DNA of 64,000 bases from Psychroserpens sp. Hel_I_66 (GTDB taxonomy: Bacteria; Bacteroidota; Bacteroidia; Flavobacteriales; Flavobacteriaceae). Both the position numbers and the translations under genes were made by a program. Under the pieces are notes generated by a model, which was given only the letters and a program-made list of their open reading frames with translations, searched no databases and was not told where the DNA came from. The stretch is from the NCBI RefSeq assembly GCF_000799465.1, contig NZ_JUGU01000001.1, positions 620,001 through 684,000 of the forward strand, given 5' to 3'. Each line of letters opens with the position of its first letter. Position 1 is the stretch's first letter. This document shows, in pieces, positions 10,444 to 25,289 of this stretch.

Positions 10444-11413
10444 ATTTGTAATCGAGACCAATTTGAAGTCTCACGGTATCCAAAAGACTAATTAATTTTC
10501 TGCTAAAATCAAATGTCATTACATCACTTTCGGTTTGACCGTCCCTAATGAGCTGATTAAAATGAACAATCTCATAATAGTAACCTATGCTTGAATGATC
10601 AAACTCTACTGTTTCTTCTTTTTCTTCGGAAATGAGCGTTACAGTGGATGGCTCGTGAAATCTAGAATTTATTTTTATAGTGCCACGCTCACAATAATAA
10701 ATAGCTTCAGTTGAAGTTTTTTCCAGAAGTGTACTTTTTAAATGGGCTTTTACATTATTATCGTAAGAAAAAATCATCAAACAAGAAGAATCCACATCAT
10801 TTTCAAAAAAAGTGGCTTTAGATTCTATATGATTAGGCTCTCCTAAAGTTGATAGTGCAGCAAAAATAGGGTAGATGCCTATGTCGAGTAAACTTCCGCC
10901 TCCAAGTGATTTTTTAAATACTCTCGAACTCATATCAAATTCAGGCTTAAAACCGAAATCTGCCTCGATTTTCAAGATTTTCCCAAAGGTTTCGTCTTTA
11001 AGTTGTCTAAGTGCAAATTGATAATGTGGCAAAAAGTAAGTCCACATAGCTTCCATTAGCAAAGTGTTTTTTGCCTTTGCTGTTGCGATCATTTCATCAA
11101 CTTCACTTAAATTGATTGCAAAAGGTTTTTCACAGAGCACAGCTTTTTTATGGTTTAGGCATAAAATAGTATGCTCATTATGAAATGAGTGAGGTGTCGC
11201 AATATAAATTGCATCTATATTAGGGTCTTCTGCTAATGTTTGGTAATCACCATAAGCATGATTTACATCATATTTCTTAGCAAAATCAATGGCTTTTTCT
11301 AGATTTCTGGAGGCTACTGCATAAAGCTTTGCGTTTTCTGCTTTAAGTAAATCTTGAGCAAATTTATTCGCAATTTTACCTAAACCGATAATTCCCCAAT
11401 TTATAGTTCTCAT
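10442..11413 (-). CDS. Gfo/Idh/MocA-family NAD(P)-dependent oxidoreductase
   Basis: A 323-residue sugar or polyol dehydrogenase-type enzyme. The N-terminal Rossmann fold has WGIIGLGKIANKFAQDL (about 5-21), the DAIYIATPHSFHNEHT stretch follows, and the family signature CEKPFAINLSEVDEM holds the catalytic EKP (about 96). The C-terminal half is the substrate domain (GGGSLLDIGIYPIFAALSTLG). The substrate is unknown; the four-base start/stop overlap with the upstream sodium:solute symporter suggests it oxidises a carbohydrate-like compound taken up by that transporter. Confidence 0.92.
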   Translation of the reverse strand: MRTINWGIIGLGKIANKFAQDLLKAENAKLYAVASRNLEKAIDFAKKYDVNHAYGDYQTLAEDPNIDAIYIATPHSFHNEHTILCLNHKKAVLCEKPFAINLSEVDEMIATAKAKNTLLMEAMWTYFLPHYQFALRQLKDETFGKILKIEADFGFKPEFDMSSRVFKKSLGGGSLLDIGIYPIFAALSTLGEPNHIESKATFFENDVDSSCLMIFSYDNNVKAHLKSTLLEKTSTEAIYYCERGTIKINSRFHEPSTVTLISEEKEETVEFDHSSIGYYYEIVHFNQLIRDGQTESDVMTFDFSRKLISLLDTVRLQIGLDYK

Positions 11414-13176
11414 GCAGGAGTATTGTTAAGAATTAAATAGCCGAAAAATACCAATACAGATATGAGTCCAGCCAAAATGAGTTTGTAGTTTTTTGGGATT
11501 TTCCCAAAATCAATAAGCATAGCAATAATTATAACTAAAAAGCAACCTACGAAGTTTAGCCATAAAAAAGGCAGATTTATGATTTCATATTGGTTTAATA
11601 AAAATAAACCAATAATTAAAACTTGAGTGATTAACGCAGCAATAAATACAGCGTTTGCTTTTACGAATTTAAAAAAGAATGCCAGGAGAAAAATACCGAG
11701 CACGTTTCCGTAGAAAATAGAACCAATAATGTTTACTAGCTGAATCAAATTTTCTGCAAGATTGGCAACACAGGCGACTCCAATGGCCATAACTCCCCAG
11801 CCTAGAGTAAACCATTTTGATGTTTTTACCATCTCGGTTTCAGACTTTTCTGAAGTATTACGTTTGTACAAATCCATAGTGGTCGTACTTGCTAGAGCAT
11901 TTAACTCGCTGGATGTACTTGACATGGCTGCACTCAAAATTACTGCTAATAATAACCCGATTAAACCTCGCGGTAAATTGTTTAAAATGAAATTTAAAAA
12001 GACATAATCTTTATCGTTGCTTTCTACTTTAATGTTTTGGGAGTCTCCAGCTTTTTCTATTAAAGTTCTGGCTTCTGCTCTCAAGGCATCACTTTCGGTA
12101 TTATATTGTGCTATTATTTGAGGATTTACTTTACCGCTTGCATTGGAGTATTCGTTTATTGCATCTTTCTTTTTTAAGAAAACATCATTCTGTTTTTCCT
12201 GTATGGCTTGATACTCATCTGCATATTTAGAACTTAGAACAACTTCTGTTGCAGCAGGATTAAAATTTAAAGGTGTTTCATTAAACTGATAAAACACAAA
12301 AACCATAACACCTATTAGTAATATAAAAAATTGCATTGGCACTTTTAAAAGCCCATTAAAAATCATACCAATTTGCATTTCTTTCAATGATTTACCTGAA
12401 AGATAACGCTGTACTTGGCTTTGATCTGTTCCAAAATACGAGAGCATCAAAAATGTACCACCAATAATTCCACTCCAAATGGTATAGCGATTATTGAGAT
12501 CAAATGAGAAATCCAAGACTTCCATTTTTCCGCTGGCACCAGCAATATCAAGTGCTTTCGAAAATGTAATATCTGCTGGGAGTTTATCGATTATCAAAAA
12601 AAACGTAATAATCAATCCTGTAAAAATTAAAATCATTTGGTGCTTTTGAGTAACATTTACTGCTTTTGTGCCTCCAGAAACAGTATAGATTATCACAAGA
12701 GTTCCGATGATTATATTCAGAAATAATAAATTCCATCCTAACACTGCCGACAAAATGATGGCTGGTGCAAAAATGGTTATTCCTGCAGCCAAACCGCGTT
12801 GGATTAAAAAGAGAATTGCGGTAAGCGTTCTTGTTTTTAAATCAAATCTATTTTCAAGGAATTCGTAAGCGGTATATACTTTAAGGCGATGGTACAATGG
12901 AATGAAAACCATGCAAATCACGACCATCGCTATGGGTAGTCCAAAATACAGTTGAACAAATCCCATCCCATCGTTAAAGGCTTGTCCTGGTGTTGATAAA
13001 AAGGTAATAGCGCTGGCTTGTGTTGCCATGACCGATAGACCGATAGTCCACCATTTTGAGGTATTACCGCCTTTTAAATAGTCCTGTACATTTTTGCTGC
13101 CTCGAGAGCGGTACGTTCCGTAGATAACAATAATCAATAGTGTACTAATAAGTACAACCCAATCTAATATTTGCAT
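11410..13176 (-). CDS. Sodium:solute symporter (SSS family)
   Basis: A 588-residue inner-membrane symporter of the SSS family with about 13-14 helices. Recognisable segments are WWTIGLSVMATQASAITFLSTPGQAF near the N terminus (helix 2, sodium site region), TYTAYEFLENRF-like YTAYEFLENRF, and LSYFGTDQSQVQRYLSGKS. A hydrophilic insert of about 100 residues (about 290-390; AATEVVLSSKYADEYQ to VESNDKDYVF) lies between membrane segments and is charged and helical; such inserts are common in Bacteroidota relatives. The gene is coupled to the oxidoreductase downstream, and a very small membrane-protein ORF abuts its start (stop TAA immediately followed by ATG). The solute is probably a sugar-like compound. 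Confidence 0.92.
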   Translation of the reverse strand: MQILDWVVLISTLLIIVIYGTYRSRGSKNVQDYLKGGNTSKWWTIGLSVMATQASAITFLSTPGQAFNDGMGFVQLYFGLPIAMVVICMVFIPLYHRLKVYTAYEFLENRFDLKTRTLTAILFLIQRGLAAGITIFAPAIILSAVLGWNLLFLNIIIGTLVIIYTVSGGTKAVNVTQKHQMILIFTGLIITFFLIIDKLPADITFSKALDIAGASGKMEVLDFSFDLNNRYTIWSGIIGGTFLMLSYFGTDQSQVQRYLSGKSLKEMQIGMIFNGLLKVPMQFFILLIGVMVFVFYQFNETPLNFNPAATEVVLSSKYADEYQAIQEKQNDVFLKKKDAINEYSNASGKVNPQIIAQYNTESDALRAEARTLIEKAGDSQNIKVESNDKDYVFLNFILNNLPRGLIGLLLAVILSAAMSSTSSELNALASTTTMDLYKRNTSEKSETEMVKTSKWFTLGWGVMAIGVACVANLAENLIQLVNIIGSIFYGNVLGIFLLAFFFKFVKANAVFIAALITQVLIIGLFLLNQYEIINLPFLWLNFVGCFLVIIIAMLIDFGKIPKNYKLILAGLISVLVFFGYLILNNTPA

Positions 13177-13332: not shown

Positions 13333-15858
13333 TTAATTTTTAATTTGTTCTGGTTGGTTCAAATCGTTTTTTCCAAGTGACAACATATTGGCAAACAAGC
13401 GATACGCTCCCGAAACTCCAGCAGGAAACTCCCTAAAGAAACTCAAACCAGTATATACGTAATAACCTTCTCCATGTCTTGCGACTAGTAAACTTCCGGT
13501 TTTTGGCGTTTCTCCCACATCATTCATAGATAGGATTGATGTAAACTCACTCGACCACTCATCAGGAAAATACAAACCACGCTCTTGTGTCCAACCTTCA
13601 AAATCTTTTTCTGTTATTTTATTCGGGAAATTTAAAACTTCATGAGTTGTCGCCAAAAGTCTAACATCTGCATTTTCATCAGTCACGCGATCACGCGATA
13701 ATTTTAAATCGTAAGGTGCGATATTATCGAATTTTAAACCTCTACTGGTATTATATTGTACGATCATATTTCCGCCTTGAGCGACGTAATCGAATAATAA
13801 TTGTTGTTTGAATTTGAGATCTTCAACTGTGTTGTAAGCTCTAATTCCCACGACTACTGCATCAAATCTTTTTAAATTTTCTGCGGAAATATCTTCTGGT
13901 TTTAAAATGGCAACCTCGTAACCAATTTGTTTTAAGCTCTCAGGCACAACATCTCCAGCACCTTCAATGTAACCGATAAGTTGTCCGCGTTTTTCAATAT
14001 CTAAACGAACAATTTTACTTTCGCTAGGTAATAGCACCGTTTGGTATGGGATATGATCGTAATCCATCTCAATCAACTCTTTGGTGTAAACCTTATCGCC
14101 GATATGAACCATAGGCGTGAGTAAGCCTTCACTTTGGTTTTTTGGTGGTACAACAGTAAAGATTAAGCGTTTGGCTTGACCCTTAACATCGATGTTTACT
14201 TTTTGTTTTTCAGGAAAGACGCTCCAGTCATTTGGATGTGCAATTTCTACGTAACCATCAATATTATCACGACCTGCTTGCACTAAAACCTCAATATCTC
14301 GTTGCTGATCGGAATCTAAAATGATAACTTTCTCTGAAATTTTTGCAGACACCTCAGGAATAATTTCAAAAGGTTTGTAAACCTCACCTTTTACGGGATC
14401 ATTAGTTTTGTAAACAATAGGTCTTGTAAAAGGAATCACTACATTTTCAATATTTAAATGGAATGTGATGTTAAGATTTTGAGGAGTTTCTGGTTTTCCA
14501 ATTAGAGATTTGTCTTCCACTTTATACATACCGAGCGTTCCGTTTTTTGTTAGCCAATATGGAGTTGAGACTTGCTCATTGTCACTTATTTTTAAAGTCT
14601 CCTTGAAATCAAAATCGGTATTATTATCTAATTTGAGATTCTTTTCAATTTTTATTCCATTAGGATTAGTGATGCTCGATAAAGTGATGTTTGAATCACT
14701 ACGATTAATGACTTCAATATTCAAATCTACCGTAGAGCCTGCTGTTGCATGGTTTGTATTTGCAGTAGCTTCTAGATATAACCCTGCGCATGCTGCGATA
14801 ATATCTTTAATCTCACTCGTTTTTACGGTTTTCCAATGGTCATTTTTTAAATCTTGAATGGCTTTGTAAGCTCTCATCAATTCTGGCAATGAAGCTGAAG
14901 GATTTCTAAAATCATAATTTTTTTGAACTGAGTAAAGAATGTCTCCAATGGCTTTTCCGCCTTCTATACGATTCCAAGACGTATCAATGCCATCAAAAAT
15001 ATTTGATTTATCTGTTGGTAAATCTCCTTTTATAAGTTCTATGTATTCAATTTGCGTACCTCGACTTCCTGTGCTTCCGAAACCTTGTGATTTATGTTGA
15101 CTTCTGCTTAATGCTGCAATTTCAGGATTACTCAAACCGCTGCTTGGGAAGTAAACGCCAGTATCAATATCTAATAAATTCGTTTTATCGGCTTTATCGA
15201 AGTTTTCCTGACTTCCGTAGAACCACCAAGACGTATTAAAAAATAAGCGCTGTGGTTGCCAGGTGTCCACTGTTTTTAATTGATTGGAATAAGCGCTTTT
15301 ATCACCAACCAAGTCAAAAGCTTCAACACTCAACATCGCAGAACTTGTATGGTGACCATGTGTGCTTCCTGGACTTCTATGATCAAAACGGTTGATAATG
15401 ACATCAGGCTGAAATTTTCTAATTGCCAAAACCACATCACTTAACACTTCATCTTTATTCCAAATGGCTAAGGTTTCGTCTGGATGTTTGGAGTAGCCAA
15501 AATCATTCGCTCTGGTAAACAGTTGTTCACCACCATCGGTACGACGAGCAGCTAATAACTCCTGGGTTCTAATCACGCCCAATAATTCTCTAATTTCTGG
15601 ACCAACGAGGTTTTGTCCGCCATCACCACGAGTCAATGAGAGGTAGGCAGTTCTTGCCTTTACTTCATTGGACATATATGAAATCAATCTTGTATTTTCA
15701 TCATCTGGATGCGCAGCAACATACAAAACCGATCCTAAAAAATTAAGCTTTTTTATGGATTCATGAATCTCTGAAGCTGTTGGCCTTTTGGGTTGTTGGG
15801 CTAGAAGTAAAGAAGTTGTGAAAAAGAATAGAAATACGTAGCGTAATTTTTTTTGCAT
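13333..15858 (-). CDS. Secreted PIG-L family deacetylase with ThuA-like C-terminal region
   Basis: An 841-residue exported protein (signal peptide MQKKLRYVFLFFFTTSLLLA, cut near AQQ). Residues ~40-250 form a PIG-L/LmbE zinc deacetylase domain: VAAHPDDENTRL gives the metal-binding AHPDDE, and STHGHHTSS the distal histidines. The middle (~370-600) is beta-sandwich-like. The C-terminal ~200 residues (GYEVAILKPEDISAENLKRF and VVGIRAYNTVEDL) resemble a class I amidotransferase/ThuA-like fold without an evident catalytic cysteine. It likely removes N-acetyl groups from a sugar or glycoconjugate in the periplasm or outside. It is upstream of the small ORF, symporter and oxidoreductase on the same strand, hinting at a carbohydrate-use operon. 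Confidence 0.9.
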   Translation of the reverse strand: MQKKLRYVFLFFFTTSLLLAQQPKRPTASEIHESIKKLNFLGSVLYVAAHPDDENTRLISYMSNEVKARTAYLSLTRGDGGQNLVGPEIRELLGVIRTQELLAARRTDGGEQLFTRANDFGYSKHPDETLAIWNKDEVLSDVVLAIRKFQPDVIINRFDHRSPGSTHGHHTSSAMLSVEAFDLVGDKSAYSNQLKTVDTWQPQRLFFNTSWWFYGSQENFDKADKTNLLDIDTGVYFPSSGLSNPEIAALSRSQHKSQGFGSTGSRGTQIEYIELIKGDLPTDKSNIFDGIDTSWNRIEGGKAIGDILYSVQKNYDFRNPSASLPELMRAYKAIQDLKNDHWKTVKTSEIKDIIAACAGLYLEATANTNHATAGSTVDLNIEVINRSDSNITLSSITNPNGIKIEKNLKLDNNTDFDFKETLKISDNEQVSTPYWLTKNGTLGMYKVEDKSLIGKPETPQNLNITFHLNIENVVIPFTRPIVYKTNDPVKGEVYKPFEIIPEVSAKISEKVIILDSDQQRDIEVLVQAGRDNIDGYVEIAHPNDWSVFPEKQKVNIDVKGQAKRLIFTVVPPKNQSEGLLTPMVHIGDKVYTKELIEMDYDHIPYQTVLLPSESKIVRLDIEKRGQLIGYIEGAGDVVPESLKQIGYEVAILKPEDISAENLKRFDAVVVGIRAYNTVEDLKFKQQLLFDYVAQGGNMIVQYNTSRGLKFDNIAPYDLKLSRDRVTDENADVRLLATTHEVLNFPNKITEKDFEGWTQERGLYFPDEWSSEFTSILSMNDVGETPKTGSLLVARHGEGYYVYTGLSFFREFPAGVSGAYRLFANMLSLGKNDLNQPEQIKN

Positions 15859-16131: not shown

Positions 16132-16905
16132 ATGACAGTGACGGAGTACGAACCAATTATAGAGGTTATAGAAGAAGCCTACGAGATCCCACAACTTCAG
16201 GCAACGCGAAAGATCTCGGCATTATTGCCACACGATTACCATAGTACCAGCAAACTTTACCCTGTATTATACCTTCAAGATGGTCAAAATTTGTTCAATC
16301 CATTAGCGCCTTATGGTGACTGGGCTATTGATAAATCTATGACTAAATTGGCGGAAGAAGGCCTTGGAGACATCATCATCATAGCTATAGACCATGGCGA
16401 ACAGGAGCGTATCAATGAATACTTGCCTTATTACCATCCGCGTTTTGGAGAAGGAAAAGGTAATTTCTACATTCAGTTTATGATTGAAAGATTGATCCCT
16501 TACATCAATAAACGTTATAGAACATTGACCGATTTTGAAAACACAGGAATTGGTGGTAGCTCAATGGGTGGATTGATTAGTTTACATGCAGGACTTCAAA
16601 ATCCAGGAGTTTTTGGAAAAATGATGATATTTTCACCAAGCTTGTGGATTTCTAAAACAATTTTCAACCAAACAAAAAGCTTTAAGCCTCTTGAGAAATC
16701 AAGAATTTATTTATATTCTGGAGGAAAGGAAAGCAAAGAGCACTTGCCAAACTCAAAACGATTGGGAAGTATCATTACCGAAAAAATGGTAAAAGGTTAT
16801 AATATCGATTTCCATTTTTCTATCAATGAGCACGGTAGCCATGCAGAAATGCATTGGCGTGAAGAGTTCCCACATGCCATAAAATGGTTATTTTTTAATT
16901 CATAA
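16132..16905 (+). CDS. Alpha/beta-hydrolase esterase (esterase D/putative peptide-cluster hydrolase)
   Basis: A 257-residue cytoplasmic alpha/beta hydrolase of the esterase D type (PF00756). Visible are VLYLQDGQNLFNP (oxyanion side), the nucleophile elbow IGGSSMGGLISLHAG (serine about 143) and the late EHGSHAEMHWREEFP with the catalytic histidine. There is no signal peptide. It is the first gene of a plus-strand operon, 3 bp before the M17 aminopeptidase and followed by an ATP-grasp gene. A second esterase of similar type starts the facing operon (24585-25289). Together with the ligases I infer hydrolysis of an ester or activated intermediate in the same pathway. Confidence 0.88.
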   Translation: MTVTEYEPIIEVIEEAYEIPQLQATRKISALLPHDYHSTSKLYPVLYLQDGQNLFNPLAPYGDWAIDKSMTKLAEEGLGDIIIIAIDHGEQERINEYLPYYHPRFGEGKGNFYIQFMIERLIPYINKRYRTLTDFENTGIGGSSMGGLISLHAGLQNPGVFGKMMIFSPSLWISKTIFNQTKSFKPLEKSRIYLYSGGKESKEHLPNSKRLGSIITEKMVKGYNIDFHFSINEHGSHAEMHWREEFPHAIKWLFFNS

Positions 16906-16908
16906 GCT

Positions 16909-18321
16909 ATGATCTATAAACACACAAAAACACTAGACACATCAAAAGATTTTATTTTACCATGTAAAAAAAATGATGTTGATGGGATAAAACACTTATT
17001 AACCATAGAAAACCCAGATTTTGATGGTAGTTTTTCCACCTATCAATTACTCTACGGAAAAAATGGAAACCGCATTTATCTTTTAGGATTAGGAGAAGAA
17101 AAAGAGGCATCTAAGCTAGAAGAGACCTTTAGAAAATTAGCTTTTGAAACCCAGAAATACTGGAATAAGACGATACAGGTTTATGCGGAAGATCTTTCCG
17201 AAGAACATATAAAAAAATCAGTTATTGGGTTAGAAATGGCACAATACCAAATAGGAGAGTTTAAATCCAAAAAAGAAAAAGAAGATAAAAAGACAGTATC
17301 ATTTTCATCACCAAAATCTATTAACAAGGTATTGGAAGAGGGATTGTACACTGGTGAAACCATCAACAAAATAAAAGCGTTGGTAGATGCACCACCAAAT
17401 ATAAAAACACCAGAATATTTAGGCGATTGGGCAAAAAAATCGGCAAGTGAGGCCAACTATAAGTGCACTGTTTTAAAACATGCTGAACTTAAAAAGCAAG
17501 GTTTTGAAGCGGTACTTTCTGTTGGAAAAGGAAGTGTGAATAAACCTGTTGTGATCATCACAGAATATACGCCTAAAAAAACCAAAAAAGTTGATATCGC
17601 TCTCGTCGGAAAAGGGATTACTTTCGATTCTGGCGGATTATCAATCAAACCATCAACCAATCTACACTATATGAAAAGTGATATGGGTGGCGCAGCAGTT
17701 GTGCTTGGTGTTGTGGAGCTGGTCGCAAAATTAAAATTGGATATCAATATTGTTGGGATCGTTTGTTCCGCAGAAAATGCTGTGGATGCAGAGAGTTACC
17801 GACCTGGTGATGTCATCAATTCCTACTCAGGTAAAACCATAGAAATTATTGATACAGATGCTGAAGGTCGTTTGGTTTTGGCAGATGGCCTAAGCTATGC
17901 AGTGAAACATATAAAACCAGAATATCTTATAGATTTAGCAACCTTAACCGGTAGCGTTGTGAGAACTTTAGGGTATGAAGCTGCTGGGATGTTCACACAT
18001 AATCAAGACATGGCGAGCACAATGTCTAATATTGGCTATAAAGTTCACGAACGTGTTTGGCAATTGCCAATGTTTGAAGAGTATAAAAGTGATTTGCATA
18101 GTGATATTGCAGATTTAAGAAATTTTAGCGGTAAGCCATTAACAGGAGCCACAAACGCAGCTCAATTTTTAGAATCATTTACCGAAGACCATAAAAATTG
18201 GATGCACTTGGATATTGCAGGTGTTTCCTTCGGAAGCTCTCCTTACGCCAAAATGAAAAGTGCATCGGGTTACGGAATTCAATTAATTACAGAATTCGTT
18301 AAAGAAAAAGCTTCAAAATAA
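16909..18321 (+). CDS. M17 family leucyl aminopeptidase
   Basis: A 470-residue cytosolic metallo-aminopeptidase of the PepA/LAP family. The catalytic domain shows VGKGITFDSGGLSIKPS (metal lysine and aspartate, about 228-244), MKSDMGGAAVVLG (about 253) and the signature DTDAEGRLVLADGLSYA (about 318-334). The N-terminal ~160 residues are the weakly conserved macro-like domain. Two zinc or manganese ions would be bound for removing N-terminal residues. It is tightly coupled to the esterase (3 bp gap) and precedes an ATP-grasp ligase by 89 bp. In this context it may trim or recycle the peptide-like product of the cluster, although a general housekeeping role is equally possible. Confidence 0.95.
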   Translation: MIYKHTKTLDTSKDFILPCKKNDVDGIKHLLTIENPDFDGSFSTYQLLYGKNGNRIYLLGLGEEKEASKLEETFRKLAFETQKYWNKTIQVYAEDLSEEHIKKSVIGLEMAQYQIGEFKSKKEKEDKKTVSFSSPKSINKVLEEGLYTGETINKIKALVDAPPNIKTPEYLGDWAKKSASEANYKCTVLKHAELKKQGFEAVLSVGKGSVNKPVVIITEYTPKKTKKVDIALVGKGITFDSGGLSIKPSTNLHYMKSDMGGAAVVLGVVELVAKLKLDINIVGIVCSAENAVDAESYRPGDVINSYSGKTIEIIDTDAEGRLVLADGLSYAVKHIKPEYLIDLATLTGSVVRTLGYEAAGMFTHNQDMASTMSNIGYKVHERVWQLPMFEEYKSDLHSDIADLRNFSGKPLTGATNAAQFLESFTEDHKNWMHLDIAGVSFGSSPYAKMKSASGYGIQLITEFVKEKASK

Positions 18322-18410
18322 TATTGAGTTTCGTAAATTTCTTGTTGATAACTAATATATCTTGATTCTTGCTCTAAAAAATAGCAAATAAGATTCTAAT
18401 TAATCCAACT

Positions 18411-19610
18411 ATGTCAAAGCAACCCTTAAATTTTCTTTGTATTTCTACCTATTTTAAAGGTCAGGATTTTCTTAAAAGCTGTAAAGCAGATGGCAATAAT
18501 GTGTATTTATTGACCAAAAAAAAGTTGGAGCATGAGCAATGGCCTTGGGAGTCTATTGATGATGTGTTTTATATAGAAGATTGGAATCAAAAGGATGTTA
18601 GTAAAGGTATTGCTTACAAATTTAGAGAGATAAAATTTGATCGGTTTGTAGCGCTAGACGATTTTGATGTCGAAAAAGTGGCATTACTTCGCGAACATTT
18701 TAGAATGCCAGGAATGGGACGCACTACTGCACATTATTTTAGAGATAAGCTAGCTATGAGAATGAAGGCTAAGGAAGAAGGCGTAAACGTGCCTGATTTT
18801 ACAGATTTATTCAATAATGATACGATTAATGAATATGCAGATAGAGTAAGTGCGCCATGGTTGATCAAGCCAAGAATGGAAGCATCTGCAACAGGTATCA
18901 AAAAGATACACAGTAAAGAGGAGTTATGGCAGGTCGTCAACGATTTGGGAGACGAACGCGATAATTATTTAGTTGAAAAATTTGCTCCAGGTGATGTGTT
19001 TCATGTTGACGGATTAAATGTTGATGGAAAAGTAGCGTTCTCAAGAGCGAGTAAATATTTAGATACACCTTTTGAAGTCGCTCATGGAGGTGGAATATTT
19101 AGATCTGCAAGTTGCGAGATAGGTTCCAAAACCGAAAAAGCATTACAAAAAATTAATGCAGATGTGATGAAAGCTTTTGGGATGTATTGTGGAGCGTCTC
19201 ATACCGAGTTTATTCAATCGAAGGCTACTGGAGAATTGTTTTTTTTAGAAACATCGTCTCGAGTAGGAGGAGCTAACTTAGCAGAAATGGTAGAAGCAGC
19301 ATCAGGAATCAACCTTTGGGCAGAATGGGCAAATATTGAAATAGCAGAACTTAGAAAAGGTAAATACAAATTACCAAAAATCAATAATCAATACGCAGGA
19401 ATTGTGGTGTCTTTAAGCAGATACGAACGTCCAGATACGTCAAGCTTTACAGATAAAGAAATTGTTTGGCGAATGAATAAAGCTTGGCATATCGGTTTAA
19501 TTGTTGTTTCAAAATCCAGCGAACGTGTGCTAGAATTGTTAGATCAATATACCGAGAGAATAGGGAAGGAGTTTCATGCCAGTTTACCCGCTCCTGATAA
19601 GTCGTTGTAG
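18411..19610 (+). CDS. ATP-grasp family ligase (cluster ligase 1)
   Basis: A 399-residue ATP-grasp protein. The N-terminal domain (NFLCISTYFKGQDFLKSC) precedes the ATP-grasp fold: PWLIKPRMEASATGIKKI (ATP-lysine strand, about 147-164), NYLVEKFAPGDVFHVDGL and the metal-binding end LFFLETSSRVGGANLAEM (about 278-295, acidic residue and asparagine). Such enzymes join a carboxylate to an amine or similar nucleophile via an acyl phosphate. The substrate is unknown. It is the third gene of the plus-strand operon and one of three ATP-grasp-type proteins within 6 kb, which with the GCS2-like ligase and amidotransferase make up the predicted amidoligase cluster. Confidence 0.88.
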   Translation: MSKQPLNFLCISTYFKGQDFLKSCKADGNNVYLLTKKKLEHEQWPWESIDDVFYIEDWNQKDVSKGIAYKFREIKFDRFVALDDFDVEKVALLREHFRMPGMGRTTAHYFRDKLAMRMKAKEEGVNVPDFTDLFNNDTINEYADRVSAPWLIKPRMEASATGIKKIHSKEELWQVVNDLGDERDNYLVEKFAPGDVFHVDGLNVDGKVAFSRASKYLDTPFEVAHGGGIFRSASCEIGSKTEKALQKINADVMKAFGMYCGASHTEFIQSKATGELFFLETSSRVGGANLAEMVEAASGINLWAEWANIEIAELRKGKYKLPKINNQYAGIVVSLSRYERPDTSSFTDKEIVWRMNKAWHIGLIVVSKSSERVLELLDQYTERIGKEFHASLPAPDKSL

Positions 19611-19651
19611 TTATTAGTAAAGAGTTGCCATTAATGTGAAAAATAACGGAA

Positions 19652-20023
19652 ATGAATAGGATTGTAACATTTTTGTCTGTAATTCTGCTCCTTTCTTGTA
19701 ACGAAAATAATGAAAATTTAATATCTTTCAAATCACAGAATTTTAGGGAGTTAACCGATTTTGAATTTGAAAACAGAAATACAATTGAAACAGAAACAAA
19801 AAGAGCTGAATATAAAGATTATATTGAGATAAATGTGACTTTCCCACAAGCAGGTTGTATAGATTTTGATGGCGATATCGCAGTTATGAATGATACTCTT
19901 CAGCTCATATATTGGAATAAAACGGGAGATGTTTGTGACGAACTTGTAATTTATAAATTACGTTATAGAATTGAAAAAAAATATGCCAAAAAATATCCCA
20001 CTAAATTAGTTCGAGAGAGATAA
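19652..20023 (+). CDS. Small hypothetical lipoprotein
   Basis: A 123-residue protein with a lipoprotein signal: MNRIVTFLSVILLLSCNENN, with the lipobox cysteine at about residue 16 (LLSC). The mature part is acidic then basic, with two further cysteines (QAGCIDFDG and GDVCDEL) that could form a disulfide, and ends RIEKKYAKKYPTKLVRER. No family is recognised. It follows the ATP-grasp gene by 41 bp on the same strand but looks unrelated to the enzyme cluster. Confidence 0.65.
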   Translation: MNRIVTFLSVILLLSCNENNENLISFKSQNFRELTDFEFENRNTIETETKRAEYKDYIEINVTFPQAGCIDFDGDIAVMNDTLQLIYWNKTGDVCDELVIYKLRYRIEKKYAKKYPTKLVRER

Positions 20024-20217
20024 TTATGGGAAATATCTGCGTGGAAATAATAATGGTAATAAAGCAACAATGCGGGAATTTACATTCTGCTAGCTCTATT
20101 ATTCTGTGAACACAGTGTAAGTAGTGACAAGTAATGTTTTGAAGAATTAAGTTACAATTTACCTCAAATTAATGGTATAATAAAAGAACTCAAAAAAATA
20201 GTACTTTAGAATAAAAA

Positions 20218-21420
20218 CTACACCTCAAAAAAACCAGTACTGCCTCCAACCCAAGTTTTATCCTTATTATATTTTACGCCAACCATTTCACCTTTACTCA
20301 AACGCATTAGGTTACTCATAATTTGAGTTTTATTGGTTTTTGAGTTGTGAAGTAACATCATTCTAATCTCGCATTTTGCTGGCTCATCCATAGTTTCAAT
20401 AATGGGAGCGTAAGCAACTTTTTCTTGCAATAGATAGTTTGATTTATTTGTCACAGCATCAATCATTTCACGAGTGACGTGGATTTGAACACCTGCACCT
20501 GCAAAAGAATAGAGCGGTTTTAAAACGTAGTTTTCTAAATCTGCTGGGATGGTTTCCAACTTATCCAAGTAATATGATTTTGGCACATAATCCCCTTTCA
20601 ATAAAGGCATCGTGTATTTGCTAATGCGATAAAACCAGTTTGGGTGACCAATCCACTCCACATCAACTTTATCTTGAAAACTGAAATCAGTTTTTAGATC
20701 CTTACGTTGGTGCAACTCGTCAAAAATAATACGGTTGTAAATTTTTAAAACTTCAACTTCGCTGCCATTTTCATCTAAATAAAAAAGTGTTTTACCTTTT
20801 TTCTTCAAATTGGTAATACAAAGTACTTTGATGCCCAATTTTGCGCTAGTTGCATAAAAATCAATTGCTGTAGCTTGTAATTCTGGTTCAATCTCTAATA
20901 AAATAACTTGTTTAGGATTGGTGTCTCCTACAATTTCTTGTCGTAATAGTTCGATATAATCCTTTGGAGTCATACCATTGAGATGTTGCGAGAAATCTTT
21001 TGGGATCACCACTCCAAAATGCTCACGATATTTACGACCTAATAATTCTTGAAAAAAGTATAAAGAAGGAAAGCCTTGTAATTCAATAAGTTTTGGGGTT
21101 AATTCGCCTTTTTTGTCTTTGCAAATCCCAAAATCCAGCTGTATAAATTTTGAATGCTCATCCTCATTTGGTACAATTGTGGAGGCTTCAAAAAAAGCAC
21201 CATTTGTTAATTCCTTAAAATTTGGCTTATCGATAACCGTCATAATATCATCGCAAGCCTCTACCAATTTAGATTTTAATGACTTCGGAATAAAAGCTGG
21301 AGTTTCTGCAATTTTAAACGGTACCACATAATCAAATGAAGTGGTTATGTCCTTTAGAAAGGCTTGATATTTTTCTTCGGAAAAATTTTCGTTGAATTGA
21401 TCTCTAAGTTCTTTTATCAT
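20218..21420 (-). CDS. ATP-grasp-like protein (cluster ligase 3)
   Basis: A 400-residue protein with an ATP-grasp-like C-terminal half: ENYVLKPLYSFAGAGVQI (lysine and small glycine-rich loop, about 287-304), NYLLQEKVAYAPII, and CEIRMMLLHNS. The first ~250 residues have a preATP-grasp-like part with IQLDFGICKDKKGELTPKLIELQGFPSLYFF. The metal-binding end is not canonical, so I call the fold, not the chemistry. It is the last gene of the five-gene minus-strand operon, 6 bp after the amidotransferase gene, and converges on the plus-strand operon. The substrate is unknown. Confidence 0.72.
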   Translation of the reverse strand: MIKELRDQFNENFSEEKYQAFLKDITTSFDYVVPFKIAETPAFIPKSLKSKLVEACDDIMTVIDKPNFKELTNGAFFEASTIVPNEDEHSKFIQLDFGICKDKKGELTPKLIELQGFPSLYFFQELLGRKYREHFGVVIPKDFSQHLNGMTPKDYIELLRQEIVGDTNPKQVILLEIEPELQATAIDFYATSAKLGIKVLCITNLKKKGKTLFYLDENGSEVEVLKIYNRIIFDELHQRKDLKTDFSFQDKVDVEWIGHPNWFYRISKYTMPLLKGDYVPKSYYLDKLETIPADLENYVLKPLYSFAGAGVQIHVTREMIDAVTNKSNYLLQEKVAYAPIIETMDEPAKCEIRMMLLHNSKTNKTQIMSNLMRLSKGEMVGVKYNKDKTWVGGSTGFFEV

Positions 21421-21426
21421 TGTCTT

Positions 21427-22245
21427 TTATGATAGTAAGGGTTCTTTTATTTGATGAATGGCATTTTTGATGAAGGTTGGTAAGATAGTTTCATAGGTCA
21501 TGATCAACTTATCTGGATCATCCATTCTATCCATCATTTGTTTGTACTTGGCTTCACCAAAACTTTTTATAACCACTTGTTTGTGTTCTTCTAACGAAAA
21601 ATAGGCTTGCATACTCACGGGATCTGCTTCTGGGTGAAATTGCGTTCCGAAGAACTCATCAGAAAAGCGAACAGCCATGATTGCGCGTTCTAATTCGACA
21701 TGGGTTCGAATCTTTTCTAAGCTCAAAATTTTAGCGCCTCTGTTTTTGAAAACTGTCAGCTTTGGTTGTATCAACTGCCAGTCACGTGAATCTACAGCAT
21801 AAAAAGGATCGTTCAAACCTGCTAAAACTGGATCGTTATGACCTTTTTTTGTTTTGTGAACGGGTAGAATTCCGAAGGAAGTACTACGTCTAGGCTTGAT
21901 TTCTCCTAAATTAAAATAATCGCAGATCACTTGAAAAGAATAGCATATAAAAAACACATGCTTCTTTTGCTGACTTTCTTTTTTATTGAAGTCCCAAAGG
22001 TTTTGCATGAGCTTGAGATATGGAGCTCTCCATTCGCCTTTGTCTAACGGACTTCCTGGTCCGCCACTGGAAATATAAATATCATAAGAAGTATCTGGGA
22101 TTTCTTGTTTTGCTCTTACATTGTAAATTTTCCAGTCCACATCTGTATTAAAAAAACCAACAATATCAGCAATGCAACGAAGTCCTTGGTTGGGTTCGTC
22201 GTCATTCATGTCTAATATGGCCAGTCTTACTTTGTTATTTGTCAT
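21427..22245 (-). CDS. Class I glutamine amidotransferase (GATase1)
   Basis: A 272-residue class I glutamine amidotransferase-like protein. The nucleophile elbow reads FFICYSFQVICDYF (cysteine about residue 109) and the catalytic His-Glu pair appears as FFGTQFHPEADP (about 212), so the Cys-His-Glu triad looks intact. SSGGPGSPLDKGEW forms the oxyanion region. It differs from GuaA and CarA, having no synthetase domain, and would therefore supply ammonia or hydrolyse a gamma-glutamyl bond for a partner. It sits between the GCS2-like ligase (15 bp) and the ATP-grasp-like gene (6 bp), which are the likely partners. Confidence 0.9.
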   Translation of the reverse strand: MTNNKVRLAILDMNDDEPNQGLRCIADIVGFFNTDVDWKIYNVRAKQEIPDTSYDIYISSGGPGSPLDKGEWRAPYLKLMQNLWDFNKKESQQKKHVFFICYSFQVICDYFNLGEIKPRRSTSFGILPVHKTKKGHNDPVLAGLNDPFYAVDSRDWQLIQPKLTVFKNRGAKILSLEKIRTHVELERAIMAVRFSDEFFGTQFHPEADPVSMQAYFSLEEHKQVVIKSFGEAKYKQMMDRMDDPDKLIMTYETILPTFIKNAIHQIKEPLLS

Positions 22246-22260
22246 TTTGTTATTTGTAGG

Positions 22261-23358
22261 TTAATTTATGCCTAAAATGGTTTGTTCTGTAATGTAATCT
22301 ACTACCTTGGTGAGATCTTTTGTTTGGTTGAAAATTTCTAACTGACGGTCTGCACCAGTTCCGTTTTTGAGCATTTGGTGAATGTACTCGATTTCTTTAC
22401 GAGAGCCTAGATCATCAACAACATCATCAACAAAATGCAATAATTCTCCCATTAAGAGACGTGTCTCAACTTCGCATTCTTTTCCGAAGTCAATCATTTT
22501 TCCATCAATACCATAACGACTGGCTCTCCACTTATTCTCGTTAATTAGCGCACGATGGTAATTCATAAAGTTGAGATTCTGCGTTTTTAGTTTGTATAAT
22601 TTAGCAACTAAAGCTTGTATTAAAGCTGCTATACTTATAGTTTCATTTACAGTTAAAGGAACATCACAGATACGAACTTCTAAAGTTGGGAAAAAAGGAT
22701 GTACTCTAATATCCCACCAAATTTTCTTTGGGTTATCTATACACTTTGTTTTGACAAGCATGTTAACGTAATTTACGTATTGTGCATAGTTATCAAAAAT
22801 ACCAGGAATACCAGTTCTTGGGAATTTATCAAACACTTTTGATCTAAATGATTTAAATCCTGTATTTCGTCCTTCCCAAAATGGTGAGTTGGTAGACAAT
22901 GCGTACAAATGCGGTAAAAAGTAACGCATGGCATTAGATAAGTGCAATGCTAACTCTTTGTCTTCAATACCAATATGAACGTGTAATCCAAAGATTAAAT
23001 TTGAGCGTGCTGTATCCTGTAATTCGTTGACAATTTCGTCATAACGAGGATTGGGTGTTATTAATTGCGTTTCCCATTTTGAAAATGGATGCGTACCAGC
23101 AGCTCCAATTTTGAAACCTAAATCATTGGCAATGCCAGATATGGATTTTCTTAAATGTGTGATTTGCTCTCTAGCATCTGTAATGTCCTCACAAATATTG
23201 GTCCCAACTTCTACCACAGCTTGGTGCATTTCTGCCTTGCATTGATCACCCATAACTTTAGAGGCTTCTACAACAATCTTTTGATCGTGAGAAATTAATT
23301 CTCTAGAAACAGGATCAATAATTTGATATTCTTCTTCAATACCTAACGTAAATTTCAT
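22261..23358 (-). CDS. Carboxylate-amine ligase, GCS2/YbdK family
   Basis: A 365-residue enzyme of the glutamate-cysteine ligase 2 (GCS2/YbdK) family in the glutamine-synthetase-like fold. Marks are the start FTLGIEEEYQIID (metal glutamates), GLHVHIGIEDKELAL (about 146), LSTNSPFWEGRNTGFKSFRS (about 176) and FPTLEVRICDVPLTVNE (about 248). It uses ATP to link the gamma- or other carboxylate of one amino acid to an amine. No separate glutathione synthase is visible here, so a gamma-glutamyl or similar dipeptide made with the neighbouring ATP-grasp ligases is an inference. It is the third gene of the minus-strand operon. Confidence 0.93.
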   Translation of the reverse strand: MKFTLGIEEEYQIIDPVSRELISHDQKIVVEASKVMGDQCKAEMHQAVVEVGTNICEDITDAREQITHLRKSISGIANDLGFKIGAAGTHPFSKWETQLITPNPRYDEIVNELQDTARSNLIFGLHVHIGIEDKELALHLSNAMRYFLPHLYALSTNSPFWEGRNTGFKSFRSKVFDKFPRTGIPGIFDNYAQYVNYVNMLVKTKCIDNPKKIWWDIRVHPFFPTLEVRICDVPLTVNETISIAALIQALVAKLYKLKTQNLNFMNYHRALINENKWRASRYGIDGKMIDFGKECEVETRLLMGELLHFVDDVVDDLGSRKEIEYIHQMLKNGTGADRQLEIFNQTKDLTKVVDYITEQTILGIN

Positions 23359-23412
23359 ACTTGAATGGAGGTTAATTAAGATTTGACTTTAAAAAATCAA
23401 GTCCATAGATAT

Positions 23413-24540
23413 CTATTTCTTTGTTCCTTTTTTAGGAGCAACATTTTTAGCTGCAGGCTTTTTAACAGGCGTTGCTTTTTTAGCTGCTGCAGTTTTATTA
23501 GGAACTGCATTTTTAGCAGGTGCCTTTTTTACGGGAGCTTTTTTAGCAGGAGCTTTTGTAGCTGTTTTTTTAACAGGAGCTTTTGCTTTAGAAATTTGAT
23601 CGGTCACAAAGCTACCCCAAGTTAGATTCATTTGTCCTTTTTTGTACTGTTTTGCCTTTTCAATCGCCATATCTGCAGCGTTTTCTACAATCCAATCAAA
23701 ATTTTCTTGTCCTACGGAATGTATATCTGCATCTGGAGCAGGGTTACAGAAATCAATAGCATAAGGAACACCATCTCTAACAGCAAATTCTACCGTATTA
23801 AAATCGTAGCCTAAAGCTTTATTTAATTTGATACAGTAAGACTCTACCAAATCTAAAATCTTTTTATCTACAGGATCTCCATCAAGAACGTAACGTAAAT
23901 GATGAGGGTTTCTAGGTTCGTATTGCATGATATGTACTTTGTCTGTACCTAAAACGTAACATCTAAAATATTCTTTAAAGTTGATTTCTTCTTGAAGCAT
24001 CATTACCAAGTTTTCTGTTTCACCATGCTTTTCCCATAGATCTTCTGGGCTTTCAACACGGTAAACGCTTTTCCATCCACCTCCATCATGAGGTTTCATA
24101 TATGCAGGAAAACCTATCGTATCAAACATTTTTTCCCAATCAAAAGGGAATTTCATGTTTCTAAATGAGTTCTCATCTGTGTCTGGCGGACGATGCGATG
24201 TTGGCAAGATAAATGTCTTAGGTACAGGCACTCCAATAGATTCTGCTAAGGCATTGTTAAAGAACTTTTCATCAGCACTCCACCAAAAGGGATTGTTTAT
24301 TACTGCGGTTCCAGTAATAGCTGCATTTTTTAAAAACGCTCTGTAAAATGGAACATCTTGAGAGATTCTGTCTATGATTACAGCATATTCATCTGACTTT
24401 GCTTGCTCTACTGTATCGATTAGTACAGCTTCAGCCATCATATCTTTGATGCCTTGTGATTTGATTTTTTCGTTTACACGATCAATAAATGCCTGCGGAA
24501 AGGTGTTTTCTTGACCAAATAAAATTCCTATTTTTTTCAT
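23413..24540 (-). CDS. ATP-grasp (RimK-like) ligase with histone H1-like Lys/Ala/Pro tail
   Basis: A 375-residue protein. Residues 1-310 are an ATP-grasp ligase: KKIGILFGQENTFPQAF preATP domain, FPAYMKPHDGGGWKSVYRV (ATP lysine and glycine loop, about 154-172), and the metal-binding PYAIDFCNPAPDADIHSVG (about 272-290). The last ~60 residues, starting ISKAKAPVKKT, are a low-complexity tail of lysine, alanine and proline repeats (APAKK, APVKK) like histone H1 or bacterial AlgP/Hc1-type tails. Such tails bind DNA or polyanions and are unusual on a ligase. The gene follows the esterase by 44 bp and precedes the GCS2-like ligase by 54 bp. It could modify a peptide or be itself tethered to nucleic acid. 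Confidence 0.88.
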   Translation of the reverse strand: MKKIGILFGQENTFPQAFIDRVNEKIKSQGIKDMMAEAVLIDTVEQAKSDEYAVIIDRISQDVPFYRAFLKNAAITGTAVINNPFWWSADEKFFNNALAESIGVPVPKTFILPTSHRPPDTDENSFRNMKFPFDWEKMFDTIGFPAYMKPHDGGGWKSVYRVESPEDLWEKHGETENLVMMLQEEINFKEYFRCYVLGTDKVHIMQYEPRNPHHLRYVLDGDPVDKKILDLVESYCIKLNKALGYDFNTVEFAVRDGVPYAIDFCNPAPDADIHSVGQENFDWIVENAADMAIEKAKQYKKGQMNLTWGSFVTDQISKAKAPVKKTATKAPAKKAPVKKAPAKNAVPNKTAAAKKATPVKKPAAKNVAPKKGTKK

Positions 24541-24584
24541 AGTTTATATGATTAGTTGTTAGTATTATTATTGTGATTAATTAA

Positions 24585-25289
24585 TTATAGTTTTGAAAGA
24601 TAATGCGGAAACATGCGATTCCATAATGGCCAATCATGTTCTGCCCATTTATGCTCGTCATACCAAAATGGAATATTCTTTTCTGTTAAAATACTCGCTA
24701 ATCGCTTATTGGCATCTAAACAAATATCCCATTCGCCAACCCCTAAAACAATTTTCATGTTCCAAAGATCTGGATTGTTACTTCCTGGTAAAAAATCTAC
24801 CGGATTGTTATAGAACACATTATCATCATAATAATCGCCCACAAAAGATTTAATATCAAATGAACCGCTCATGCTAAACATATGGCTCACGCGTTCAGGA
24901 TGCTTAAATGCAAAGTTGGCAGCTTGGTAGCCTCCAAAGCTGGGACCTGCGACCGCTACTTTTTGTAAGCCTTTTTCCGTAGAAATTTTATTAACGATTT
25001 CATTCATTATAAATTGATCATACCACTCGTGGTTTTTTGCACGTTGCGCAGGGTGGATTTGTTTGTTGTACCAGCTTAGCTCGTTTATACTATCTGGGCA
25101 GTAGATGGTAATCATGCCTTGCTCAACAAACCATCGTGCAGATTCAACAAGTTTCATGTCTCTACATTCATTATGTTTTCCCATTGTGGTAGGAAATAAA
25201 ATAACTGGATAGCCAGAATGACCAAAAACAAGCATTTCAATATCCTTGCTCAATGTTGGTGAGTACCATTTAAAATGTTCTTCCTTCAA
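24585..25289 (-). CDS. Alpha/beta-hydrolase esterase (second cluster esterase)
   Basis: A 234-residue esterase D-type alpha/beta hydrolase. The nucleophile elbow is VAVAGPSFGGYQAANF (serine about 121), the acid is likely in VGEWDICLDANKRL, and the catalytic histidine is in WAEHDWPLWN near the C terminus. No signal peptide. The start codon is TTG at 25289: a stop lies five codons upstream in frame and no ATG is available. It heads the minus-strand operon (esterase, ATP-grasp, GCS2, GATase, ATP-grasp-like) and mirrors the plus-strand esterase at 16132. Confidence 0.88.
   Translation of the reverse strand: MKEEHFKWYSPTLSKDIEMLVFGHSGYPVILFPTTMGKHNECRDMKLVESARWFVEQGMITIYCPDSINELSWYNKQIHPAQRAKNHEWYDQFIMNEIVNKISTEKGLQKVAVAGPSFGGYQAANFAFKHPERVSHMFSMSGSFDIKSFVGDYYDDNVFYNNPVDFLPGSNNPDLWNMKIVLGVGEWDICLDANKRLASILTEKNIPFWYDEHKWAEHDWPLWNRMFPHYLSKL

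Follow-up and report, generated by a model that had tools for sequence, protein, structure and literature searches.

Gene content of the two facing runs

The present analysis concerns a gene set in a 64,000-nucleotide stretch of the Psychroserpens sp. Hel_I_66 genome (the window; contig NZ_JUGU01000001.1, positions 620,001 to 684,000). Eight intact open reading frames (ORFs) were found at 16132-25289, arranged in two convergent runs with gaps of 3-89 bp, and these facing gene groups encode four amide-bond-forming enzymes together with several amide- or ester-cutting enzymes. The plus-strand run, Est1-M17-AG3, covers 16132-19610; the minus-strand run, in reading order ESTE-RIMK-YBDK-GAT-ORPH, extends from 25289 down to 20218. 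Pfam and NCBIfam searches recognized an esterase, an M17 aminopeptidase, an ATP-grasp protein, a class I amidotransferase, a GCS2/YbdK protein, a weakly matching RimK-like ATP-grasp protein and a second esterase. An earlier note, made from the letters of the stretch, had already described the two facing operons with these coordinates, gaps and enzyme types, as well as the Cys-His-Glu triad of the amidotransferase, and all of this was correct.

The eighth product, ORPH (20218..21420, minus strand), had no Pfam or NCBIfam match, and its assignment as an ATP-grasp ligase of the GspS/YgiC type comes from the fold of a predicted model. The model resembles YgiC, YjfC, GspS, trypanothione synthetase and the eukaryotic glutathione synthetase at 10-15% identity, and the GspS-type ATP-grasp fold spans its whole chain. 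Eight residues (D96, E113, Q115, R230, D234, K301, E351 and R353) were invariant in all 100 aligned rows and are candidates for ATP and metal binding. No amidase domain is fused to ORPH, which aligned to the ligase part of GspS only (residues 211-618). It is a 400-residue ligase that differs from GspS in having its hydrolase encoded separately, as an amidotransferase-like protein or an M29 peptidase, and a glutathione substrate is not indicated.

YBDK (22261..23358, minus strand) is a GCS2/YbdK carboxylate-amine ligase: it passed the cut-offs of the YbdK-family NCBIfam models PRK13515 (532.6 versus 371 bits) and TIGR02050 (312.9 versus 176.4 bits), its profile matched the structure 1r8g with an E value of 8.5e-66, and it failed the GshA model gshA_cyano (TIGR02048, 70.1 versus 249.05 bits). 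The neighbouring RIMK (23413..24540, minus strand) stayed below the cut-off of the RimK family (TIGR00768, 32.7 versus 143.4 bits) and below the gathering score of the R2K clade (R2K_2, 20.4 versus 26.2 bits), but it has, on weaker structural evidence than ORPH, a RimK-like ATP-grasp fold, and the likely catalytic K149 and E251 were kept in 76 of 77 rows. Its Lys/Ala/Pro-rich C-terminal tail of about 55 residues (23413-23590) contains PF07382 in many homologues and varies among the relatives from none to more than 100 residues. YBDK and RIMK are the same two kinds of enzyme, GCS2-type and ATP-grasp, as in the GshA-GshB synthesis of glutathione, but RIMK is nearer to RimK, and additional ligases and hydrolases are present here. 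Compared with the alpha-L-glutamate ligase RimK itself, RIMK is set apart also by its company, YBDK and ORPH.

The fourth ligase, AG3 (18411..19610, plus strand; PF02222, 31.8 versus 27 bits), is related in sequence to L-amino acid ligases of solved structure, namely 4wd3 (E 5.2e-23) and BL00235 (E 3.4e-11), and is predicted from this kinship to form dipeptides. Unlike those enzymes it stands in an operon with an aminopeptidase and an esterase and, among the genomes searched, it is limited to those carrying the cassette. Homology between RIMK and AG3 was not demonstrated by profile comparison. The hydrolytic partners are M17 (16909..18321, plus strand; leucyl-aminopeptidase type, PF00883, E 6.5e-113), the PF00756 serine esterases Est1 (16132..16905, plus strand) and ESTE (24585..25289, minus strand, with a TTG start as listed), which head the two runs, and GAT (21427..22245, minus strand), a class I amidotransferase-like protein (PF00117, 39.8 versus 22.8 bits) with the Cys-His-Glu triad in 53 of 53 sequences, which is probably an amide hydrolase.

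Co-occurrence and submodules

The distribution of the set was followed in 296 genomes of one phylum, judged from the names of homologues to be Bacteroidota. ORPH was found in 92 of them, RIMK in 108, and at a threshold of E <= 1e-20 GAT in 70, YBDK in 103 and ESTE-like esterases in 124. The RIMK figure was reduced from 111 by removing G154, G170 and G245, where the match covered the Lys-rich tail only; a weak second match in G035 and a second fragment in G272 were also discarded. RIMK was present in 89 of the 92 ORPH genomes, on one strand within 20 kb in 50 cases and not so linked in 39. YBDK of at least 52% identity occurred in 87 genomes, every one of which had ORPH, and the remaining 16 YBDK genomes (33-49%) lacked it; this line was drawn after the list had shown a gap between 52 and 49%. 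ORPH, RIMK and YBDK were all present in 84 genomes. Considering RIMK, YBDK, GAT and ORPH together, all four were seen in 50 genomes, all but GAT in 34, RIMK-GAT-ORPH in 4, RIMK and GAT without ORPH in 15 (7 of them with a distant YBDK), other mixtures in 17 and none in 176. Of the 111 genomes with ORPH or RIMK, 80 were searched for AG3, as were 64 genomes that lack both and were chosen as relatives; AG3 was detected in 50 of the 80 and in 0 of the 64. Fifteen of these 50 genomes, from four families with differing layouts, have it no more than 40 kb away from a cassette gene.

Neighbourhoods were read in 40 stretches from the sampled genomes and in 80 named loci, the best of at least 590 matches, from ORF listings with a lower limit of 80 residues (90 in one neighbourhood listing). 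Named records with the set include Larkinella, Hymenobacter, Spirosoma, Polaribacter and Gelidibacter, and further records with it bear the titles Verrucomicrobia, Ignavibacteria, Calditrichaeota and Cloacimonetes. The gene set is therefore conserved across many genomes of the phylum and beyond it, and the proposal of the earlier note that an uncharacterised multi-ligase, amide-forming set is encoded here has held: gene order or co-occurrence extends well past this genome, and no described product was found. Pairwise identities of RIMK, YBDK, ORPH, GAT and M29 were correlated at 0.61-0.81, a range that is uninformative for want of an unrelated control gene.

Three submodules, each combining one or more ligases with one or more hydrolases, recurred in these neighbourhoods: RIMK-YBDK with or without a leading ESTE, ORPH preceded by GAT or an M29 peptidase, and Est1-M17-AG3. 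In genomes with both partners, adjacency (less than 500 bp, one strand) was observed for RIMK-YBDK in 55 of 91, for GAT-ORPH in 39 of 55 and for GAT-YBDK in 32 of 58, and the median gaps in the named loci were 29 bp for RIMK-YBDK (39 pairs), 32 bp for YBDK-GAT (20) and 23 bp for GAT-ORPH (33). M17 had the same place in the close relative L035, in L073, in six named loci and in L165-L167. Counting Est1 homologues of at least 42% identity (weaker rows were removed, leaving 25 of 63 genomes, as were second AG3 matches in three genomes), 24 genomes have both Est1 and AG3, and 16 have them on one contig; in 15 of these 16 the two share a strand at a distance of 1.4-2.3 kb. ESTE was the first gene before RIMK in many named loci.

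The facing arrangement itself recurred in L035 and in 6 of the 80 named loci (three Gelidibacter, Subsaxibacter, Polaribacter and Arcticiflavibacter). In one genome of family f2 (G012, stretch L073) the order is Est1-M17-AG3-ESTE-RIMK-YBDK-GAT-ORPH, all on one strand, which supports the view that both runs belong to one system. The set was present in 5 of the 6 sampled f2 genomes, the genes found being laid out on a single strand throughout; one of the five has Est1 on a separate contig, and M17 was read in G012 only. Since these genomes carry the set on one strand and the submodules are unlinked in other lineages, the facing layout is incidental, and the symmetric design suggested earlier reduces to one arrangement of the three submodules. 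Nor can the two esterases be regarded as a matched pair at the operon heads: Est1 goes with AG3 and ESTE with RIMK. We also considered Est1 as one family everywhere and rejected this, as an esterase in 19 of the 80 named loci was only 23-32% identical to it. This third PF00756-like esterase stands upstream of ESTE or RIMK, and divergently from it, in other lineages (e.g. L102:3699-4520 and L134:2915-4432).

The gene immediately preceding ORPH (on its strand and less than 1 kb away) was compared in 99 distinct loci, L071 and L091 of the 100 having the same sequence (both are included in the residue rows above). GAT occupied this place in 44 loci and an M29 peptidase in 23; the two were never found there together, and 32 loci had neither, so that M29 holds the place of GAT in 23 of the 67 loci having either. 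Of 17 loci whose titles are verrucomicrobial, 13 had an M29 peptidase with conserved E, H and HxD residues, and 0 had GAT. The alternation of two unrelated hydrolases at one place suggests that the step performed there is amide cleavage, and a hydrolytic role is more probable for GAT than one in supplying ammonia; the family and triad given for it in the earlier note were right, and it is the role that has been refined.

In two genomes of a single genus ORPH directly followed a sequence that, read by eye, resembled a sodium:solute symporter (L155:3637-6240 and L156:3273-5950), and in L155 both were contained in one ORF of 867 residues. This neighbourhood might point to an imported substrate.

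A second type of cassette was recognized among the 15 genomes having RIMK and GAT without ORPH. In all 11 examined (L042, L043, L046-L048, L051, L052 and L158-L161) a CP_ATPgrasp_2-type protein followed RIMK; GAT was next in 10 of them and on another contig in L051, and a further PF00756-type esterase followed in five. AG3 was present in L042, whose CP_ATPgrasp_2-type protein matched PF14403 with an E value of 2.1e-09. This protein may stand in for ORPH; homology of the two was not demonstrated by profile comparison (probability 2.7).

A proposed peptide-amine conjugation pathway and its alternatives

Because core ligases related to GshA, to GshB/RimK and to GspS, the types of enzyme by which glutathionylspermidine is made, are accompanied in many lineages by at least one hydrolase per submodule, the set would be explained by a short peptide that is joined to an amine and later taken apart. 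We give about even credence to the view that the set encodes a conserved pathway in which a small peptide-amine conjugate is built non-ribosomally and broken down again. In the order that we infer, YBDK would make the first amide on a carboxylate, of gamma-glutamyl type according to its family kinship, RIMK would then add one or more amino acids, and ORPH would couple the carboxylate of the peptide to an amine; a polyamine would have a precedent in the family. Where AG3 is present, as in Psychroserpens sp. Hel_I_66, it might supply or add a dipeptide unit. The hydrolases would be paired with the ligases, GAT or M29 with ORPH, M17 and Est1 with AG3, and ESTE with RIMK and YBDK, and the synthetase-plus-amidase logic of the bifunctional GspS would thus be distributed over separate genes. 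The wider proposition is that bacteria widely possess a reversible system of peptide-(poly)amine conjugation, in which three to four free-standing ligases write the conjugate and dedicated hydrolases, at least one per submodule, erase it; we consider this rather less likely than not. The reading of the earlier note has become more specific through the GspS-like ligase, the three submodules and the write-and-erase pairing, and it is in part supported.

Several observations weigh against this pathway. The choice of a polyamine as the amine depends on the fold kinship of ORPH at 10-15% identity, and YgiC is described in PMC12506659 as being without glutathionylspermidine synthase activity; in favour of the pathway, YgiC and YjfC are termed peptidylpolyamine synthetases in PMC12568646. 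The substrates named above are all putative. The RIMK model is poor, and in its Foldseek ranking RimK comes after D-Ala-D-Ala ligases and graspetide macrocyclases. Four genomes of family f5 (G037, G064, G158 and G178) have RIMK, GAT, ORPH and AG3 and no YBDK match, from which it follows that the YbdK step is dispensable or replaceable; together with the CP_ATPgrasp_2 cassettes lacking ORPH they imply that the order of steps is not universal. Neither GAT nor M29 stands beside ORPH in about a third of its loci (32 of 99). Furthermore, the sampled genomes are related, so that the Fisher values for co-occurrence come from non-independent tests and overstate significance; more weight is due to the joint presence of the genes in genomes where they are unlinked.

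Other explanations were weighed against the same evidence. The RimK-like ligase and its partners could tag proteins with a peptide or an amine, the aminopeptidases, GAT and the esterases removing the tag; this seems unlikely to us, since RIMK is below the RimK cut-off, ORPH and AG3 are similar to enzymes whose substrates are free peptides or amino acids, and no recurrent protein-substrate gene was noticed in the cassettes in a search that was not exhaustive. We hold a similarly low opinion of the idea that free-standing ligases make a pseudopeptide that is secreted or bioactive, in the manner of dapdiamides or E-64, with the hydrolases serving self-protection or release: the very broad and often unlinked distribution is more like that of primary or accessory metabolism, and the neighbourhoods, in which not all unlabelled neighbours were identified, showed no exporter that recurs. 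A system that mainly dismantles imported peptides or conjugates, with the ligases in recycling steps, would account for hydrolases being at least as numerous as ligases and for ORPH following a sodium:solute symporter in one genus, within one ORF in L155. But the set is most constant in its three to four ATP-using ligases, and the esterases and GAT are present in some genomes and absent from others, which makes such salvage quite improbable.

A thiol cofactor pathway of glutathione- or homoglutathione-like kind is suggested by the relationship of the three core ligases to GshA, GshB/RimK and GspS or eukaryotic glutathione synthetase, and we rate it equally low as salvage, or slightly lower. 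YBDK is far under the GshA cut-off, and BshC was found in 291 of the 296 genomes, with or without the set, from which bacillithiol is near-universal and a thiol role for the set is not needed; ORPH is carried by two of the five genomes lacking BshC (G109 and G237). A role of the set as a substitute for bacillithiol was ruled out on the same count. The high place of graspetide macrocyclases in the Foldseek result for RIMK would fit a graspetide-type pathway, that is one of ribosomally synthesized and post-translationally modified peptides, with an overlooked precursor. This is very hard to credit: the gaps within the operons are too small for a precursor (ORFs of less than 80 residues outside the operons were not examined), and pathways of that type have no role for ORPH, YBDK and AG3. 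A defence system was likewise discarded, as 0 of the 8 proteins had a PADLOC match at E <= 0.01.

ATP-grasp and COOH-NH2 ligases linked in operons, also with peptidases, have been reported in multiple instances according to PMC4431377, which cites Iyer et al. 2009. That linkage is of the same kind as here, and those neighbourhoods are the likeliest place of a prior prediction. Among the literature matches listed, no title or abstract dealt with this gene set, and we do not claim it to be unreported. If the wider proposition of a reversible conjugation system is correct, the system would be a functional counterpart of glutathionylspermidine and trypanothione metabolism. Nearly one in three of the sampled genomes carries ORPH, most of them with RIMK and YBDK as well, and together these would make up a multi-ligase pathway for which no described product was found. 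The analysis also provides a genomic setting for YbdK-type ligases and for a GspS-like family without a Pfam entry, the core is small, three ligases and a hydrolase, and the submodules predict which hydrolase reverses which bond.

Surrounding sequences in the window

The motif TTTG-N17-21-TAnnTTTG, which we take to be a Bacteroidota promoter type, was found 5 times in the 64-kb window against 4.6 expected and not at all in 16132-25289, and was uninformative. Between the two runs lies an ORF of 123 residues (19652-20023) with a lipoprotein-like start; it had no Pfam or NCBIfam match, and none was listed at the equivalent place in L035. Upstream of Est1 there are two ORFs which, judged from their translations, resemble a sodium:solute symporter (11410-13176) and a PIG-L deacetylase (13333-15858).

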